The position numbers and the translations under genes were made by a program. Below are positions 24,066 to 30,573 of a DNA stretch of 35,998 bases, one piece after another. Within the stretch, counting starts at the first letter, position 1; each line of letters starts with the position of its first letter. The notes beneath the pieces were generated by a model. That model was not told where the DNA came from. It did no database searches and saw nothing but the letters and a program-made list of their open reading frames with translations. This DNA comes from Muribaculaceae bacterium (GTDB lineage Bacteria > Bacteroidota > Bacteroidia > Bacteroidales > Muribaculaceae): contig JAFYYG010000005.1 of assembly GCA_017557625.1 (NCBI GenBank), positions 1 to 35,998 on the forward strand, written 5' to 3'.

Positions 24066-24280
24066 AATAACGAGAGTTCGATAAAATTTAATTGATTGAA
24101 AATTAGGGAAAAAAGTAGTAATTTTTAGTGGTTTTGTGGTGCAAAAACATAACTCTAAAAACAACCAGTATGTTTCCTGAAGGCAAAATTATAGAAATTT
24201 TCTCAATGTGTTATTGTTTCATCAAAGTTTTTGACAAAACTGTTGTGCAAAATTCCATAACAGTGGCGAGAAGACAAGGA
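24066..24280 (+). mobile_element. IS982-like element remnant, left end, with short transposase fragment
   Basis: 24066-24205 repeats the sequence of 11435-11572 in opposite orientation. The transposase start ATG is at 24170 (MFPEGKIIEIFS) and the frame continues MCYCFIKVFDKTVVQNSIT before the protein-like character is lost around 24280. The element is therefore longer here than at the kinase gene but still only a 5' remnant. Confidence 0.7.
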
Positions 24281-24315
24281 AACGCACGCCCGACGGCGAG
24301 CCTTTTGGTATGCAT

Positions 24316-24340
24316 GGAAACCGCGCGCTCGCTGATCTGT
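24316..24340. repeat. GAAACCGCGCGCTCGCT repeat, copy 1
   Basis: The 17 nt recur at 30889-30905; both copies are followed within a few bases by GATCT. Non-coding. Confidence 0.45.
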
Positions 24341-24505
24341 ATAATGCTGCATAGAAACTCACGGCAACCCTATATGGAATCCGTGAGTTCGTTTTTTCTA
24401 TTTTTTTGGAATTTTACTACTCAAAAGCGATATTGTTGCACAATTATGTTTAATTATGCACAATAAATGAAATTATTAATTTATTCACCAAAAAAATTAT
24501 TGCAA

Positions 24506-24925
24506 ATGAAAAAAACATTACTTTTTCTTGCAGTGCTGCTTACAGCAGCGACGGCGTGGGCAGAGACACAGAACGTCAACTACATTGACGCCAATGGAGC
24601 AGAACAGACGGTCGAGGCCACCGTATTAACAACTGGAGGCTGGCAAGATCCAGGCTGGTATGTGGTGACAGGGAACATTGAAGCAAGTTCTTTAATCTTT
24701 GATTCTGGTGGAATCACTAACCTCATTCTTGCCGACGGTGCCACTCTCACACTCAACGACGGTGGCATATACGCTTTTGGCGCAATCACTATTTATGGTC
24801 AGAAAAATGGTACCGGTAAGTTTACTAACATTCCCGGAGATGAGTCCGATTATGCATTGAGAGCTAATGGCGATATCAACATCCACGGCTGGTGCCGTTT
24901 TTTTTCAGTGCATCATTGCCATTGA
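24506..24925 (+). pseudogene. Truncated secreted surface protein (N-terminal fragment)
   Basis: The frame from ATG 24506 gives 139 residues: a good signal peptide (MKKTLLFLAVLLTAATAWA), then NVNYIDANGAEQTVEATVL and a beta-helix-like stretch with NLILADGATLTLNDGGIY, IYGQKNGTGK and ALRANGDINIHG. This is the start of large Bacteroidales exported proteins with carbohydrate-binding-like repeats; such proteins normally run for several hundred residues. After NIHG the frame turns into GWCRFFSVHHCH and stops, so only the N-terminus survives. A frame start at 24467 is upstream of the signal peptide and unlikely. An imperfect inverted repeat TGCACAATTA / TAATTATGCA (24438-24461) precedes it. Confidence 0.7.
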
Positions 24926-25632: not shown

Positions 25633-26631
25633 ATGGCGAACATTCTATTAACTGAAACATGTGTTAGAAGTTGTCCCTATTGTTTTGCCAAGCAATATAT
25701 GGCAAACAATGTTAATGAAAATGATTATATTTCATGGGACAACCTCATCTATATAGCAGACTTTCTGTCCGCTTCTGGCGAGAACCATGTATCGCTGTTA
25801 GGCGGAGAGCCATTATTGCATCCTCAAATTTCTAGCATTATAAAGTATCTTAACCAGAGAAATTTGAGTGTTACTATTTTTACAAGTGGCATTATGCCCA
25901 TTGATAGGCTTCAGCGGTTTGTCGCTGAATTAAACGAGCTGCAAAATCTACGCGTTGGATTTGTATGTAACGTTAACGAACCTAGATTTTCACCGAAAAA
26001 TGAATTGGAACGAGTTGAACAGTTCCTGACCTTGTTCGCTAACCGTACATCACTGAGTTTCAACATCTATAGGACAGATTTTGAAATGACCTTTTTACGC
26101 GATTATATCGTTAGATTTGGGCTTGATAGACATATAAGATTAGGATTAGCTCATCCAATTCCAGGCAAGAAAAACAAGTATATTCCAACAAATGAGTTCA
26201 ATAGCGTTAAGGATAAACTAATTCAGTTCTTTACTGAGAATCAGGTATTTGGCATAATTCCTGGCTTTGATTGCGGCTTCCCAATGTGCATGTTCTCTGA
26301 TGAAGAACTAGGTTTGATGTTTAAACTTTCTATTGGGCAACTTTGTTTCCAATGCGGTCCAGCTATTGACATTGATGCCGAGCTAAATGTTTGGTCCTGT
26401 TTCCCTCTGTCGGATTTTAATAAGAAAAGCCTTTTTGACTTCACAACATATGGCGAATTAGCAAAGTTTTATCTTGAAAAGATGGAAGAAGTTCGTAGTG
26501 AACGCAGAGGCATATACCCACAATGTGACGACTGTCAGCATAATAAGCATGGTTTATGTTCAGGCGGTTGTTTAGCTCACATATTAAACGGATTTATCGA
26601 AGAAGGTGACTTCAGAAGGCAAGAAAAATGA
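25633..26631 (+). CDS. Radical SAM/SPASM-type peptide maturase, first in cassette
   Basis: The 332-residue protein has the radical SAM cluster motif C10-x3-C14-x2-C17 (ETCVRSCPYCF) and the SAM-binding GGEP at residues 57-60, so it should cleave S-adenosylmethionine at a 4Fe-4S cluster to a 5'-deoxyadenosyl radical. Beyond the partial TIM barrel a Cys-rich C-terminus (214, 219, 238, 241, 256, then C298-x2-C301-x7-C309-x3-C313 in DDCQHNKHGLCSGGC) fits a SPASM or twitch domain with auxiliary clusters, as in peptide-modifying enzymes. The next gene begins at its stop in an ATGA. Local DNA is more AT-rich than the core genes. Exact reaction unknown; likely substrate is the Tyr-rich peptide encoded downstream. 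Confidence 0.85.
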   Translation: MANILLTETCVRSCPYCFAKQYMANNVNENDYISWDNLIYIADFLSASGENHVSLLGGEPLLHPQISSIIKYLNQRNLSVTIFTSGIMPIDRLQRFVAELNELQNLRVGFVCNVNEPRFSPKNELERVEQFLTLFANRTSLSFNIYRTDFEMTFLRDYIVRFGLDRHIRLGLAHPIPGKKNKYIPTNEFNSVKDKLIQFFTENQVFGIIPGFDCGFPMCMFSDEELGLMFKLSIGQLCFQCGPAIDIDAELNVWSCFPLSDFNKKSLFDFTTYGELAKFYLEKMEEVRSERRGIYPQCDDCQHNKHGLCSGGCLAHILNGFIEEGDFRRQEK

Positions 26632-27452
26632 AAAAGTCAGGATTAACATATATTGTTGATGATTTGTCTCTTATAAGAAAAAACATAATAAGAGACAACT
26701 CCGTTGTAATAAAGTTATCTAATCCAGATGATGTTGTTGGTGTTTTTCAAAGATATTATGGAGACTACAATATCTATCAAATTTGTTTAGACCTAGGATT
26801 TGGTTCTTTGTCACAAATTCAATTCAACAACGATTGGGAAAATATTCCACTAGTCATTTTTGCTTATAATCTTGGTGATTTGAACTACATTCTAAATATT
26901 GTAGGTTTAATTCAATCCTGCAAGATAAGAGTTATGCAGCCTGCCTCGAACAAAGAATCATATGCCTCTTTGAAGATTTTATCATCTCTTGGTGTCGATT
27001 GTGGTATTTTCTTTGACCAAGAACAAGCTGATTCAGAAGCATTTCTTGACTTAGCGTCATATTATTATATGTCTCCAGTACCCCATGCCTCAATAGAGCC
27101 ATTTGCAAACATAAAAGAGAACATCCATCTAGACTACAATCATAGCTTTGACGAAGTTTATTTTGTTGACGAGAAGCGCTTCCTTTACATTCATTCAGAG
27201 AAAGAATTTTCATTCTTACCTCAAAGTAAACGCTTAAGTATATACCTTTCTGATGAAGATTTTGAGAAAGAACAGGTAAATTTTAAGCTTGAGAATTACT
27301 ATGGTCATTTTATGGAGCTTGACCAATGTTCAAAGTGCAAAGCGTTTAAAATATGTAACCACAAACTAAGTTCATCATTCAATTGCGATTGCCAGCAAAC
27401 TATGGCAGAAGTTTTTGAGTATGCTGAAATTAGTGAAACTGTTAGGAGATAA
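26628..27452 (+). CDS. Pseudo-radical-SAM protein with C-terminal Cys cluster
   Basis: 274 residues with no CxxxCxxC motif, so it should not bind the SAM cluster. The middle part has alternating strands and helices of barrel type (LVIFAYNLGDLNYIL, KIRVMQPASNKESYASLKIL, GVDCGIFF), and the C-terminus has Cys234-x2-Cys237-x5-Cys243-x9-Cys253-x-Cys255 (QCSKCKAFKICNHK, FNCDC), laid out like the end of a SPASM domain. I read it as a degenerate partner of the two radical SAM enzymes, perhaps for precursor binding. Pseudo-rSAM partners are known from other Bacteroidales peptide systems (GG-Bacteroidales type), but homology to them is not shown. Starts in an ATGA overlap. Confidence 0.65.
   Translation: MKKSGLTYIVDDLSLIRKNIIRDNSVVIKLSNPDDVVGVFQRYYGDYNIYQICLDLGFGSLSQIQFNNDWENIPLVIFAYNLGDLNYILNIVGLIQSCKIRVMQPASNKESYASLKILSSLGVDCGIFFDQEQADSEAFLDLASYYYMSPVPHASIEPFANIKENIHLDYNHSFDEVYFVDEKRFLYIHSEKEFSFLPQSKRLSIYLSDEDFEKEQVNFKLENYYGHFMELDQCSKCKAFKICNHKLSSSFNCDCQQTMAEVFEYAEISETVRR
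27444..27448 (+). promoter_or_regulatory. AGGAG ribosome-binding site deciding the second radical SAM start
   Basis: AGGAG lies 8 nt before the ATG at 27457. Shine-Dalgarno sites are rare in this window, so this one supports that start over the in-frame ATG at 27415 inside the preceding gene. Confidence 0.55.
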
Positions 27453-27456
27453 CACT

Positions 27457-28584
27457 ATGCCAACACTGATATTCAAAGAAACTGAAGCATGTAACTCTAA
27501 TTGCATTTACTGTGACGTAATTGCAAGAAAGAAGCCGTGTACTATTTCTTTTGATTTGTTAGAAACTGTATTCATTAGAATTAATGAATATCTAGAGAAA
27601 TATTCGAATCAGAATTTCTCCATTGTTTGGCATGGAGGCGAACCGTGCATTGTTGGAGTCAAGTTCTATAATAAAGTGCTGGAGTTGCTAGACAAGCATT
27701 GCCCCAACACCAAGAACAGAATATCACACGATATTCAGACAAACCTAACTTTAATCAATCAAGAGTTAATTGATGTATTCAAGAATCTTGGGATGAATAG
27801 AGTTGGAACAAGCTATGAGCCATATAAAGGCATTCGTGGATTTGGGAAAGAGCGAGACTCTGATGCATATAATAGAGCGTTTTTCCGTGGAATAGAACTC
27901 ATTGAGAAGAATGGGTTTTCTTGGGGCTTTATCTATGTGGTAACGCGAAATGTAATAGATAAGCCATTGGAGATATTCAACATTTTGACAAATTTCAAGG
28001 TAAAAGGTGGTTTCCAACTTCATCCTGTTTATTCATATAAAAATGAAGACAAGAATAATGTCGGAATCACAGCAATGGAATTTGCGGATTTTTTGGGTGA
28101 AATATTTAAAGAATGGTGGGAACATCGCCAGAGATATCCATTCGTTCAACCTTTCTTCTCGTATATGAACCATTATGGAAACGGTGGAACTGTTTGCTGT
28201 AGCGAAAGTGGTCAGTGCGCTTATTCACATATATTCCTTGGCCCTAATGGCGAAATCTCACATTGCGGTCGTTCATCCGATTGGGATGTATTTGAAGTAG
28301 GAAACATAAAAGAAGTTTCTATAATAGAAGCCTTCAATCACGCTTATAGAAAAGACTTGGAAAAGAGGAACGAGTATCTTTTGGCTAATGATTGCAAAGG
28401 TTGCGAATACTTTTCGTTATGTCATGGCGGTTGCCCTCTCGATGGATGGAATTACAAAGATACAATTTTTGCAAAGTCCGAATGGTGTGCAGCAACTAAA
28501 GTATTTCTTAAAAAATATTTTGAACCTATCACTGGTTTAAAATTCGATTCAAGAAAATATGAGCAGCTGGATTTATCTAAATAG
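27457..28584 (+). CDS. Radical SAM/SPASM-type peptide maturase, second in cassette
   Basis: 375 residues from the ATG at 27457. The cluster motif is C12-x3-C16-x2-C19 (EACNSNCIYCD), GGEP at 60-63 (VWHGGEP). The C-terminal SPASM region has C254, C270, then C313-x2-C316-x5-C322-x3-C326 (DCKGCEYFSLCHGGCPLDGW) and C344, the arrangement of anaerobic sulfatase-maturase-like SPASM enzymes that carry two auxiliary 4Fe-4S clusters. Many relatives install thioether, C-C or C-O cross-links in ribosomal peptides. It follows the pseudo-rSAM gene by 4 nt and overlaps the next by 26 nt. The presumed substrate lacks Cys, so a thioether product is unlikely; cross-links or epimerisation on Tyr/Asn are the candidates. 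Confidence 0.88.
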   Translation: MPTLIFKETEACNSNCIYCDVIARKKPCTISFDLLETVFIRINEYLEKYSNQNFSIVWHGGEPCIVGVKFYNKVLELLDKHCPNTKNRISHDIQTNLTLINQELIDVFKNLGMNRVGTSYEPYKGIRGFGKERDSDAYNRAFFRGIELIEKNGFSWGFIYVVTRNVIDKPLEIFNILTNFKVKGGFQLHPVYSYKNEDKNNVGITAMEFADFLGEIFKEWWEHRQRYPFVQPFFSYMNHYGNGGTVCCSESGQCAYSHIFLGPNGEISHCGRSSDWDVFEVGNIKEVSIIEAFNHAYRKDLEKRNEYLLANDCKGCEYFSLCHGGCPLDGWNYKDTIFAKSEWCAATKVFLKKYFEPITGLKFDSRKYEQLDLSK

Positions 28585-29248
28585 TACGTCAAACATAGAC
28601 GCTTTGGCTTTATCTGCAGTTCTTAATGCTTCAGATAAGTGTTTCAACGTAGTAAAACAATCTCGTTTTAACTTTGTCTTGGAAGGACACCCCAAGATTG
28701 AGCAATATGGCCACCCCTCAAAAGATGACGATGTGATTTGTATATCAACAGATAATTCATCTTTTTCTGAACTATGTGACAAAATTGCAACTCAACTTGC
28801 AATCGATGCAACTGAGTTCACACCATTCATTCCCGTTAGAAGCAAGATGACTTCATCAATAGGTGAAATAATAGGCAACTCTAAGATTTTAATTATTTTA
28901 GAAAAACCTAATGATGATGAGGCGATTGATGTATTTCTAATTGATGCCATTGTGCAAGGATTGAATGCCAAAGGTTATGAAGCAATTCAAACAGGCTTTG
29001 AGGCTCTCCCTCACATAAGAAAGTCTTATGATTTAAGAGGTTTTGACTCTCTCCAAATTTTACATAATTTTGATTCAGTTTCGCAAATCATCACAAATTC
29101 TTCATTTTGGCAGATTCTTTCAAAATATCTGAACAAGAGCTGCTATGTAGTTTCAGATGTGCCAAATCCAACAATGGAAATGAGTGGTATAGCGAAATCA
29201 AATACAGTTATTAATCAAATTTCAAATAGTATTCAGCATGGAAAATAA
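28559..29248 (+). CDS. Small GT9-like (GT-B fold) protein in the radical SAM cassette
   Basis: 229 residues, not confidently assigned. The beginning (WIYLNSTSNIDALALSAVLN, FNFVLEGHPKIEQY) and the end (DLRGFDSLQILHNFDSVSQI, then SSFWQILSKYLNKSCYVV and VPNPT) echo the start and nucleotide-sugar-binding half of heptosyltransferase-like GT9 proteins (L-x-G-x-x-S-L-x-x-L, then I-x-x-x-S-x-x-x-x-L-A-x-x-L-x-K-x-x-V). It is much shorter than the usual 330-360 residues and the signature S/D residue of the donor loop is not clear. If related it could glycosylate or bind the Tyr-rich peptide. The start overlaps the preceding gene by 26 nt; its stop overlaps the peptide gene by 11 nt. Confidence 0.5.
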   Translation: MSSWIYLNSTSNIDALALSAVLNASDKCFNVVKQSRFNFVLEGHPKIEQYGHPSKDDDVICISTDNSSFSELCDKIATQLAIDATEFTPFIPVRSKMTSSIGEIIGNSKILIILEKPNDDEAIDVFLIDAIVQGLNAKGYEAIQTGFEALPHIRKSYDLRGFDSLQILHNFDSVSQIITNSSFWQILSKYLNKSCYVVSDVPNPTMEMSGIAKSNTVINQISNSIQHGK

Positions 29249-29555
29249 AAAGAACATGTCAAGACGCGAAGCCCTTAAGCGTATGGCTAAGGCTGTTGCA
29301 GGTGTTGCGGTACTCTCTGTTCTCCCGACCATGAGTGCTGACGCTCAGTACTATTACAAGTACTACAACTACTACAACTCTGGTTATGGTCATGGTGGCT
29401 ATACCAAGTACTACAACTACTATGGTAATTACTACAATTATTATAGTAATTACTACAACTATTCGAATTATTCAAACTTTTACTATTCGAATTATTCAAA
29501 CTACTATCGAAACTACTATAACCGATATTATAATTATATGAAGTATGGCTATTAA
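29238..29555 (+). CDS. Tyr/Asn-rich repeat peptide with twin-arginine-like signal; probable radical SAM substrate
   Basis: 105 residues. Residues 7-14 (MSRREALK) match the Tat motif S-R-R-x-F-L-K except Ala for Phe; a moderate hydrophobic core AVAGVAVLSVLP and a SADA-Q cleavage site (36/37) follow. The mature 69 residues contain 33 Tyr and 14 Asn, with units such as SNYYNY and GNYYNYY; no Cys, Trp, Asp or Glu occur, and the charges are a few Lys and Arg. The encoding DNA is made of TAC/TAT-AAC/AAT near-repeats. It sits between modification genes and overlaps both neighbours by 11 nt, so it is the natural substrate candidate. An in-frame ATG at 29256 (MSRREAL) is an alternative start. Tyr-rich polymer or cross-linked fibre precursors are the closest idea; no named family is recognised. 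Confidence 0.82.
   Translation: MENKKNMSRREALKRMAKAVAGVAVLSVLPTMSADAQYYYKYYNYYNSGYGHGGYTKYYNYYGNYYNYYSNYYNYSNYSNFYYSNYSNYYRNYYNRYYNYMKYGY
29340..29552 (+). repeat. Degenerate Tyr/Asn codon repeat inside the peptide gene
   Basis: Units of TAC-TAC-AAC and AAT-TAC-TAC with alternating TAT/TAC synonyms, about 9-15 nt long. The synonymous variation suggests selection on the peptide sequence rather than recent slippage. Confidence 0.6.
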
Positions 29556-30231
29556 CATCGCAATTTTCGTCCCCGAAGGGATGGTCATTGCCTCTGATTG
29601 TCTTTCATTTATGAGAACAGTCCGAGACGATGGTTTTAGCCATACACATACAACGAGAACATTTGGCTTGTTTAACAAATATGTCATTTCGTTTTGTGAT
29701 AATGGTTATGCTCAAGGTTTGCCTTACGGCTATTATGTGGCCAAGTTTCAACAAGATAATTGGAACTTAGCTAATCATCGCCCTGCAGAAGTGGCATCTG
29801 CATTCGTACGATATTTGACAGATTGCCATAGCCTCAAAGATCTAGATAAGTTCTATATAGCTGGATATGACAAGTTAAATAATCAGTCCATTCCATATGT
29901 TGCCTTTTATGAATCAAATGAACTACATATTGTAAACATTGACCAAGATAACAACTCTGTTTATAACTTCCACGCTATTGGAGAAACATATTGGCTATAC
30001 AAAATACTACTAAACACAAAAATCACAGAAGACAAGTCAGAAGTTGAGTTCGGAAACATAGACATAGATTTCACAAAGTACTCGATAGCAGACGCAGAAG
30101 ATTTTGCGAAATCATTGATTTTAATTAGTGCGAAATTAGATTACTTAGCTCAATTTTCAAATCGAATTGGCGAAAATCTCACCCTCGCAACAATTACACC
30201 AATGCAGGGTGTTGAAATAAAGGAACTATAA
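29545..30231 (+). CDS. Proteasome-like (Ntn-hydrolase-type) protein lacking the catalytic threonine
   Basis: 228 residues. The start NIAIFVPEGMVIASDCLSFM has the strand-turn-strand of 20S proteasome beta/HslV proteins (V-G-I-x-x-x-D-G-V-V-L-A-A-D-x-R), with Asp18 at the place of the conserved Asp17 and FGLFNKYVISFCDNGYAQG resembling the second hairpin. In that alignment the residue after the initiator Met is Ala2 where the active Thr1 belongs, and the usual Lys33 is replaced by an Arg/Thr stretch. If right, it is an inactive chamber-like or binding protein; otherwise it is an unknown. It closes the operon, overlaps the peptide gene by 11 nt and is followed by a strong terminator 21 nt later. 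Confidence 0.5.
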   Translation: MAINIAIFVPEGMVIASDCLSFMRTVRDDGFSHTHTTRTFGLFNKYVISFCDNGYAQGLPYGYYVAKFQQDNWNLANHRPAEVASAFVRYLTDCHSLKDLDKFYIAGYDKLNNQSIPYVAFYESNELHIVNIDQDNNSVYNFHAIGETYWLYKILLNTKITEDKSEVEFGNIDIDFTKYSIADAEDFAKSLILISAKLDYLAQFSNRIGENLTLATITPMQGVEIKEL

Positions 30232-30252
30232 TGTATTATAGTTTCGTAATAG

Positions 30253-30279
30253 ACCGCTCAGTATTGGGCGGTTTTTTTT
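30253..30279 (+). terminator. Intrinsic terminator of the radical SAM cassette
   Basis: ACCGCTCA pairs with TGGGCGGT (one G-T wobble) around GTAT, followed by eight T. It marks the right end of the six-gene operon. Confidence 0.9.
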
Positions 30280-30322: not shown

Positions 30323-30573
30323 GGGTGTGTCATAATGAAGATATGGCATGCCCTCTTTGAAAATAAACCGTCTGAGAATGCGATATGTCTCAGGCGGCTT
30401 GTTTTTCTGTTTTTTGCCAGAATAATCGATTCTCAGAGGTTAAAATTTGAACTGTGAGGCAAAATACGAGAAAATGTGTCGGATTTCCGCCATTATGGGT
30501 GGATTTCGCTGTTTTTGCGGCCCATTTCTTGATGTTGAAGGCGATGGCAAAGAAGGCGACAACGACGAGTAAT
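30323..30573 (-). mobile_element. IS1182-family element remnant (3' end of transposase)
   Basis: On the minus strand the frame reads LVVVAFFAIAFNIKKWAAKT and continues to NRLFWQKTEKQAA then stop (about 30400), the typical C-terminus of IS1182-family transposases (FAIAFNIKK). Beyond the stop a hairpin of CCGTCTGAGA (30368-30377) with TCTCAGGCGG (30388-30397) would terminate the gene, and the terminal motif GGGTGTGTCA with CCCTC arms (30323-30357) marks the element end. The 5' two thirds are missing. Confidence 0.8.

Follow-up and report, generated by a model that had tools for sequence, protein, structure and literature searches.

A conserved radical SAM cassette built around a tyrosine-repeat peptide with a Tat-type leader

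What might be produced by six closely packed genes of a Muribaculaceae bacterium, among which a small, tyrosine-rich peptide is encoded beside radical S-adenosylmethionine (rSAM) enzymes? The genes lie on contig JAFYYG010000005.1 (assembly GCA_017557625.1), of which the first 35,998 nucleotides were analysed and are referred to here as the window. All six open reading frames (ORFs), named A to F, were confirmed on the plus strand at 25633–30231 (Table 1). They are as tightly packed as the initial annotation of this DNA had stated, with a 4 nt overlap between A and B, a 4 nt gap between B and C, a 26 nt overlap between C and D and 11 nt overlaps at both D/E and E/F. That annotation had proposed a peptide-modification system of two rSAM proteins, a pseudo-rSAM protein, a glycosyltransferase-like protein, an exported Tyr/Asn-repeat peptide and a proteasome-like protein. 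The modification cassette, its conservation and the precursor with a signal of the twin-arginine translocation (Tat) type stand; a general role for F and a constant place for D do not, and an N-terminal nucleophile (Ntn)-like nature of F found no support. We conclude that this is a real, conserved rSAM peptide-modification cassette which is apparently undescribed, as no description of such a cassette was found in the openly licensed (Creative Commons) PMC literature. In the reading we favour, to which we give a probability of about 0.6, the cassette resembles those of ribosomally synthesised and post-translationally modified peptides (RiPPs), with A, B and C modifying E into cyclophanes between each Tyr and the residue two positions later (i to i+2), and the product leaving the cell by Tat.

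The cassette is found well beyond the window. When 393 genomes of the order were searched with C, 58 matched at E ≤1e-20, and the genome of the window and five others fell below 1e-90. These five relatives are 40–50% identical in C, and the A-B-C order is kept in all of them, which answers the check on related genomes that the initial annotation had called for. Downstream of A-B-C, three of the five carry a family 9 glycosyltransferase (GT9) and Tyr-repeat peptides; one of the other two has a Tyr/Asn-rich peptide upstream, and the contig of the last stops after C. With the aligned A sequences as query, a scan of GTDB contigs matched 114 stretches, 34 of them with an encoded relative (L040–L073, including the contigs of the five closest genomes), which together with the window form a set of 35 loci. 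As the scan demands exact peptide patterns, the 34 loci are a lower bound. Homologues of A are present in all 35 loci, those of B in 30, of C in 29 and of D in 18 (two of these fused to C). A-B-C stand in this order in 29/35 loci, and Tyr-repeat precursors likewise occur in 29/35, as expected of a peptide-modification cassette. Of the six loci without C, four run off their contig (L058, L060, L072 and L073) and two (L041 and L070) show neither B nor C.

The 105-residue peptide E has a mature part of 69 residues with 33 Tyr and 14 Asn (the Asn counted by eye), as first described. Precursors were picked in the 35 loci by an RR[EDN]A[LI]-type motif together with at least three Tyr, which gave 32 precursors, one of them (in L046) truncated by the end of the locus. 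They lie upstream of A in 15 cases and downstream in 17, so that a precursor gene with leader and core stands beside maturase genes, as in RiPP systems, in 29/35 loci. No precursor was found in L041, L052 (where the contig ends), L059, L067, L070 and L073, with a Tyr-poor candidate only in L067. A motif-independent pick (Tyr content at least 12%, 60–350 residues, all ORFs within the 512,304 bases of the 35 loci) returned 31 ORFs, 27 of which possess [RK][RK][EDN]A[LI] near the start (26 with RR and one with KK). All 27 are on the strand of A, between −1.4 and +5.1 kb from its start; of the four ORFs without the leader motif, two are antisense, one is distant and one is short. Between E and its homologue in L040, 86/105 aligned residues are identical (0.82), and the identities of A (0.60), C (0.76) and F (0.36) for the same pair of loci are all below this. 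The codon has changed at 49 of the 86 identical residues of E, similar to A, C and F (0.56–0.60); residues are kept while codons change, hence the Tyr/Asn core is conserved at the protein level. This conservation, together with the A-B-C order in 29/35 loci, shows that the cassette is not a product of chance.

Both A and C are above the Pfam cut-off for Radical_SAM, and C also matches SPASM, in agreement with the two rSAM genes first proposed. The CX3CX2C motif was present in 35/35 homologues of A, 29/29 of C and 0/30 of B. In A it sits at the very N-terminus, and eight further Cys are invariant in 6/6 aligned sequences; the matches of A are generic only (a MoaA-, viperin- and PqqE-like core), with weak core-domain matches as its PDB relatives. 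C homologues combine CX3CX2C with CxxC-x5-CxxxC in 29/29 cases, that is, an rSAM core plus a SPASM pattern. B retains CxxC-x5-C in 30/30 homologues, its C-terminal part aligned with the SPASM region of C in hhalign (probability 67; no match of B to A), and its AlphaFold2 model reached a predicted local distance difference test score (pLDDT) of 87.5, while no NCBIfam model matched B at E up to 1. Given the loss of CX3CX2C in all 30 homologues, pseudo-rSAM appears a fair label for B, supported by the Cys motifs and by a single hhalign alignment whose probability was moderate. Two loci, L056 (11682–14121) and L065 (7871–9821), have two consecutive C-type genes per cassette, and by eye the second C-type gene of L056 has lost CGR and the last Cys-rich SPASM stretch.

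None of the six proteins reached an NCBIfam cut-off except C, for a generic SPASM domain model, and among ten relatives scanned none did so beyond the same kind of domain match where listed. The models nearest to C are those for sulfatase maturases, DynA, DarE, GrrM/OscB, AmcB and YhhB, all under cut-off, and the cyclophane models XyeB (60.2 bits, cut-off 450) and FxsB (59.9, cut-off 370) were likewise missed. Residues 6–364 of C align with the structure 4k36 of an anaerobic sulfatase-maturing enzyme (anSME) at E 8e-26. In anSME the Asp after the cluster Cys has a catalytic role, whereas this position is Gly in 6/6 aligned C proteins, and C scored 153.6 bits against a cut-off of 349.45 for TIGR03942; membership in the sulfatase maturase family was rejected on both grounds. 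The HXS system was rejected too: it likewise pairs two rSAM enzymes with a repeat of three residues (mentioned in PMC9062424), but its repeat is based on His and that of the cassette on Tyr, C reached 63.9 bits against the 370 of HxsB, E has no match to the HXS precursor, and HxsC was not among the best 25 of 60 families for A or the best 25 of 55 for C. GG-Bacteroidales peptides (TIGR04150) also come from Bacteroidales and pair an rSAM with a pseudo-rSAM protein; however, their leader is of the double-Gly type and that of the cassette Tat-type, and this family was excluded because B and E match neither its pseudo-rSAM nor its precursor model at E up to 1. In the poly-cyclopropylglycine system of TvgB, as described in PMC9062424, an rSAM enzyme similarly acts several times along a repeat core, but the repeat is TVGG, the rSAM enzyme is single and its partners are an oxidase and a transporter/peptidase. 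The initial annotation was therefore right that no named system fits, in the sense that no match reached the cut-off of the HXS, GG-Bacteroidales, GrrM, XyeB or sulfatase-maturase models.

The closest parallel appears to be the triceptides, made by three-residue cyclophane-forming enzymes (3-CyFEs; XncB, OscB/GrrM, MscB, YxdB and YhhB). According to PMC11002830, these rSAM/SPASM enzymes act on aromatic-x-[Asn/Asp/Ser/Arg] sequences, Tyr included, joining the aromatic ring to the beta-carbon at i+2, and known products include Tyr-Asp and Tyr-Arg cyclophanes. The cores of the cassette precursors display the same arrangement of an aromatic residue with N/S/D/R at i+2, weakly in the window core itself. 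Unlike triceptide systems, the cassette has two rSAM proteins plus a pseudo-rSAM protein, its precursor bears a Tat-type signal and as many as tens of triplets, GT9 is optional, and C is far under the model cut-offs.

In a full-shuffle count over 29 loci weighted equally, N/S/D occupied the position two after Tyr (+2) at a frequency of 0.67 vs 0.361 in shuffles (standard deviation, sd, 0.020), and Tyr recurred at +3 at 0.58 vs 0.356. This count included the C-terminal domain of the L068 precursor, which was trimmed in a second series of 1000 shuffles where every Tyr position was kept and non-Tyr residues were counted. With Tyr fixed in this way, N/S/D still filled 579/682 positions at +2 (0.849, shuffles 0.644, sd 0.012) and G/A/T/V/I/P only 46/682 (0.067, shuffles 0.215, sd 0.011), compared to 170/649 at +1; 0/1000 shuffles were as extreme in either respect. 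Thr fell from 49/649 at +1 to 9/682 at +2, Gly from 56/649 to 13/682, and G/A/T/V/I/P were rarer at +2 than at +1 in 24 of 28 loci and commoner in four. A reduced set of 18 loci, hand-picked as one per clade, gave the same picture (N/S/D 382/453 and G/A/T/V/I/P 34/453 at +2, 0/1000 shuffles as extreme), and in 15/18 loci N/S/D were more frequent at +2 than at +1. The cores of L063 and L047 have clean Y-x-N/D triplets. A structural turn would favour Gly at +2, whereas a reaction at a beta-CH2 group would not tolerate it. Judged by sequence, Y-x-[N/S/D] is the substrate pattern of the three-residue-cyclophane rSAM enzymes that appear to be kin of C, and the putative i,i+2 cyclophane is the best-supported chemistry. 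An Ala acceptor is known for His among these enzymes (PMC11002830), so the cyclophane class does not follow the beta-CH2 rule without exception.

The product is very probably exported by Tat, a pathway which accepts folded cargo, as suggested by the RR signals of all but one of the 27 motif-bearing ORFs and by the presence of the machinery. TatC was detected in 30/35 genomes, including that of the window, and the Tat-like precursor first proposed gains from this. In six of the 35 loci (L044, L047, L049, L055, L061 and L068) a tatA gene, recognised by motif and with Pfam scores of 48–66 bits, adjoins the cassette, and tatC is the next gene after tatA in L047, L049 and L061 (Pfam-confirmed in L047). 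The leader pattern has a single occurrence in the genome of the window.

Several observations weigh against this combined reading of cyclophanes and Tat export. E itself scores 12.2 bits with the Tat-signal model TIGR01409, below the cut-off of 16.7, and the leader in L051 has KK instead of RR. TatC was not found in the genomes of L048, L059, L066, L069 and L070, which incomplete bins could explain, yet two of these (L066 and L069, Elusimicrobia) encode RR-leader precursors with short Tyr cores. The sequence SRRDALKRM also starts an unrelated protein of Tat type encoded by the genome of L040 (L097, 1384–2409; an iron-sulfur (ferredoxin)/flavodoxin-like protein, named by eye), so the leader of E is not proven to be maturase-specific. 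On the side of the chemistry, C is far below the curated cut-offs of the cyclophane formers GrrM/OscB (105.2 vs 310) and YhhB (87.4 vs 445). The triplet rule is reversed in three of the 18 reduced-set loci (L042, L053 and L058), strongly so in L058, where N/S/D make up 0.28 at +2 and Arg predominates, and the window core obeys it weakly (N/S/D 0.63 at +1 and 0.71 at +2).

The sequences show which genes make up the cassette and that they are conserved together; they also show the RR motif of the signal, the Y-x-[N/S/D] rule and, next to some cassettes, tat genes. From these a pathway may be proposed. In the cytoplasm, the leader of E would bring it together with the A, B and C enzymes, among which B perhaps has no catalysis of its own but helps in binding or electron transfer. 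C would take a beta-hydrogen from the residue two after each Tyr and bond that beta-carbon to the Tyr ring, yielding a string of three-residue cyclophanes with a loss of about 2 Da per link. A would perform a second radical modification, and in many relatives the GT9 glycosyltransferase could add a sugar. The rigidified chain would then cross the membrane via Tat and be released or, in precursors whose signal has a lipobox-like Cys at its end, be held at the membrane.

Other Tyr chemistry is an unlikely explanation, though the likeliest of the alternatives. The rSAM enzymes might form ring-to-side-chain bonds of other spacing (PqqE-like) or Tyr-Tyr biaryls, or cleave the backbone at Tyr, with the triplet spacing left over from repeat duplication and secondary structure. 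There are two different rSAM enzymes, A matches only generic rSAM cores and many cores contain Tyr-Tyr pairs, all of which suits this explanation. It does not account for a +2 rule that survives fixed Tyr positions, with Gly and Thr avoided at +2 and not at +1, and the kin of C act at beta-carbons (PMC11002830, PMC8326336). Another alternative, a low-complexity reading frame that arose by chance beside unrelated rSAM genes, is already refuted: slippage easily makes repeats and a second low-complexity ORF, antisense, is present in the same stretch, but the precursor recurs in 29/35 loci with one signal type, and E keeps its residues against L040 through numerous codon changes.

Two further explanations concern the product rather than the cross-link. 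Many rSAM RiPPs are antibiotics, and a patchy, probably transferred cassette would suit a diffusible antimicrobial or signalling RiPP, cleaved from its leader and acting on neighbours; we consider this improbable. No peptidase or ABC exporter family recurs among the neighbours (families in at least three loci), where the one ABC-ATPase-like cluster, from four loci, is not placed beside cassettes by the test. Core lengths in relatives reach more than 200 residues, a Cys ends the hydrophobic stretch before the core in 11/32 precursors (several lipobox-like by eye, six flagged by a strict pattern; L054 and L061 are of the lipobox type), and the L068 precursor continues from a Tyr/Ser repeat into an Lcl_C domain (44.9 bits, cut-off 34.9). 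Taken together, lipobox-like signals, fusion to Lcl_C, long cores and the absence of a peptidase family recurring among the neighbours tip the balance towards a product with a surface or structural role over an antibiotic that is released. Glycosylation as the main event, with a surface glycopeptide glycosylated on Tyr, Ser or Asn by GT9 and a minor role for the rSAM enzymes, seems highly improbable. GT9 matches in relatives and C-D fusions speak for it, but D is missing from 17/35 loci (some of them cut off) and is motif-less in the window, both fusions and one more of its 18 copies, while A, B and C stay.

Similar cassettes in many bacterial phyla suggest that this peptide is of a new, chemically hardened kind. 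If the cyclophane reading is extended to its full consequences, which we do tentatively and with less than even confidence, the cassettes could define a cross-phylum class of ribosomal peptides whose Tyr-x-[N/S/D] triplets, by the tens in a single chain, become strained cyclophanes through the rSAM enzymes. The resulting stiff, aromatic poly-cyclophane rod would leave the cell in folded form through a Tat system that is in part dedicated to it; many hosts would keep it attached to their surface, where it could serve structure, barrier function or charge transport, instead of releasing it as an antibiotic. In such a class, rSAM modification of Tyr triplets repeated many times over would be combined with a pseudo-rSAM partner and with export by Tat, three features for which no joint report was found in the open-licence PMC literature, and the Tat route would explain how a pre-rigidified peptide exits the cell. 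The rule that Tyr+2 takes a beta-CH2 residue could then be tested on 32 precursors and their enzymes from many phyla, and the class might be a natural source of rigid aromatic peptide polymers.

The claim that D is GT9-like held for its relatives, with L055 and L043 above the cut-off of PF01075 and the L063 fusion below it, but not for the window copy, which is degenerate and had no Pfam match at E up to 1. Among the 18 copies of D, the three GT9 motifs checked were present in 14 (GD), 12 (SPRK) and 13 (D..HA), and all three are missing in four (the window, L041, L063 and L064). As D is also not seen in 17/35 loci, some of these cut off, it is not a constant part of the cassette; glycosylation, if any, would be optional across loci and has probably been lost in the host of the window. 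F was found in two of the 35 loci only, the window and L040 (36% identity), which does not support a general role for it. Its proteasome-like assignment stays a guess: F matched no Pfam family up to E 10 and no credible PDB relative (two ribosomal-protein matches at E 0.85), and a two-sequence AlphaFold2 prediction had a pLDDT of 40.5, too low to be of use. The residue after Met in F is Ala in the window, and Ser in L040 if the second Met is the start.

The distribution of the cassette is patchy, and horizontal transfer is likely. A tree of A proteins (n = 32, without the partial sequences of L070, L072 and L073) spans ten phylum-level groups, and Nitrospirota, Ignavibacteriota, Thermodesulfobacteriota and Chlorobiota are each split by starred branches, to which misbinning of metagenome-assembled genomes could contribute. 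In the genus of the window A matched in 2/101 genomes, its own and G668, where the A-like genes sit in a different cluster; D was found in 1/247 and F in 1/397 genomes of the family, in both cases the genome of the window. GC content across the cassette is 0.35–0.37, compared to mostly 0.4–0.55 elsewhere in the window, consistent with acquisition. The 101 genomes of the genus were screened with the EF-G-like and TonB-receptor flanks for an empty site, and the stretches read from G785, G135 and G711 had no counterpart of window 23.4–30.9 kb except for one 117-base match in L092, lying elsewhere. No A was found on viral contigs or phages, and on plasmids only one distant A-like gene in another cluster type. 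The precursors of L056, L057, L065 and L072 share a near-identical C-terminal core block with two Cys (..YYSQYCSG..YYYSYYCS.RYSSY..) in bins labelled as four different phyla, as would be expected of transfer.

A-like genes also occur in other settings. The plasmid gene, 31.9% identical to A, belongs to Candidatus Chlorohelix allophototropha (L088, NZ_CP128402.1 231695–238254) and is one of three genes annotated as radical SAM, which adjoin hypothetical proteins and an IS21 element. In G668 (L087, G668:C27) three A-like rSAM genes are clustered with an 83-residue PqqD-like, a kinase-like and an ABC-transporter-like protein (named by eye). L041 (173–5491) holds an A-like rSAM gene in a different cassette with no B, C or precursor seen, its partners being a protein that weakly matches the MvdD pre-ATP-grasp family (24.5 bits against a cut-off of 27), a 188-residue protein and a 540-residue protein with a weak D-like part.

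Table 1. Features of the cassette in the window, with the evidence for each.
Feature	Coordinates	Strand	Description and evidence
A	25633..26631	+	Radical SAM protein; Pfam PF04055, 47.9 bits; 6-sequence alignment; homologues in 35/35 loci
B	26628..27452	+	Putative pseudo-rSAM without CX3CX2C, SPASM-like CxxC-x5-C kept; hhalign, motif counts, model
C	27457..28584	+	Predicted rSAM/SPASM peptide maturase; kin are sulfatase maturases and cyclophane formers
D	28559..29248	+	Short degenerate GT9-like protein; relatives are full-length GT9; fused to C in L063 and L064
E, whole	29238..29555	+	Tyr/Asn-repeat precursor, 105 residues
E, N-terminal part	29238..29345	+	Tat-type signal/leader, SRREALKRM ... 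ADA; sequence, leader motif in relatives
E, core	29346..29555	+	69 residues, 33 Tyr, Y-x-[N/S/D] triplets
F	29545..30231	+	Family not assigned; overlaps E; also 3' of E in L040, in 0/33 other loci
Terminator-like hairpin	30251..30274	+	Closes the cassette, 3' of F

The start of C was set at the ATG at 27457, and an in-frame TTG upstream at 27415 is likewise open. Terminator-like sites number eight in the whole stretch vs 3.3 in shuffles (sd 1.9). On the 3' side of F, a short open fragment on the minus strand (30429–30569) resembles a transposase C-terminus by eye and had no match in a Pfam search. On the 5' side of the cassette, two adjacent short ORFs (24128–24925) look by eye like a broken secreted-protein gene; the second, which has no Pfam match, appears by eye to carry a secretion signal.

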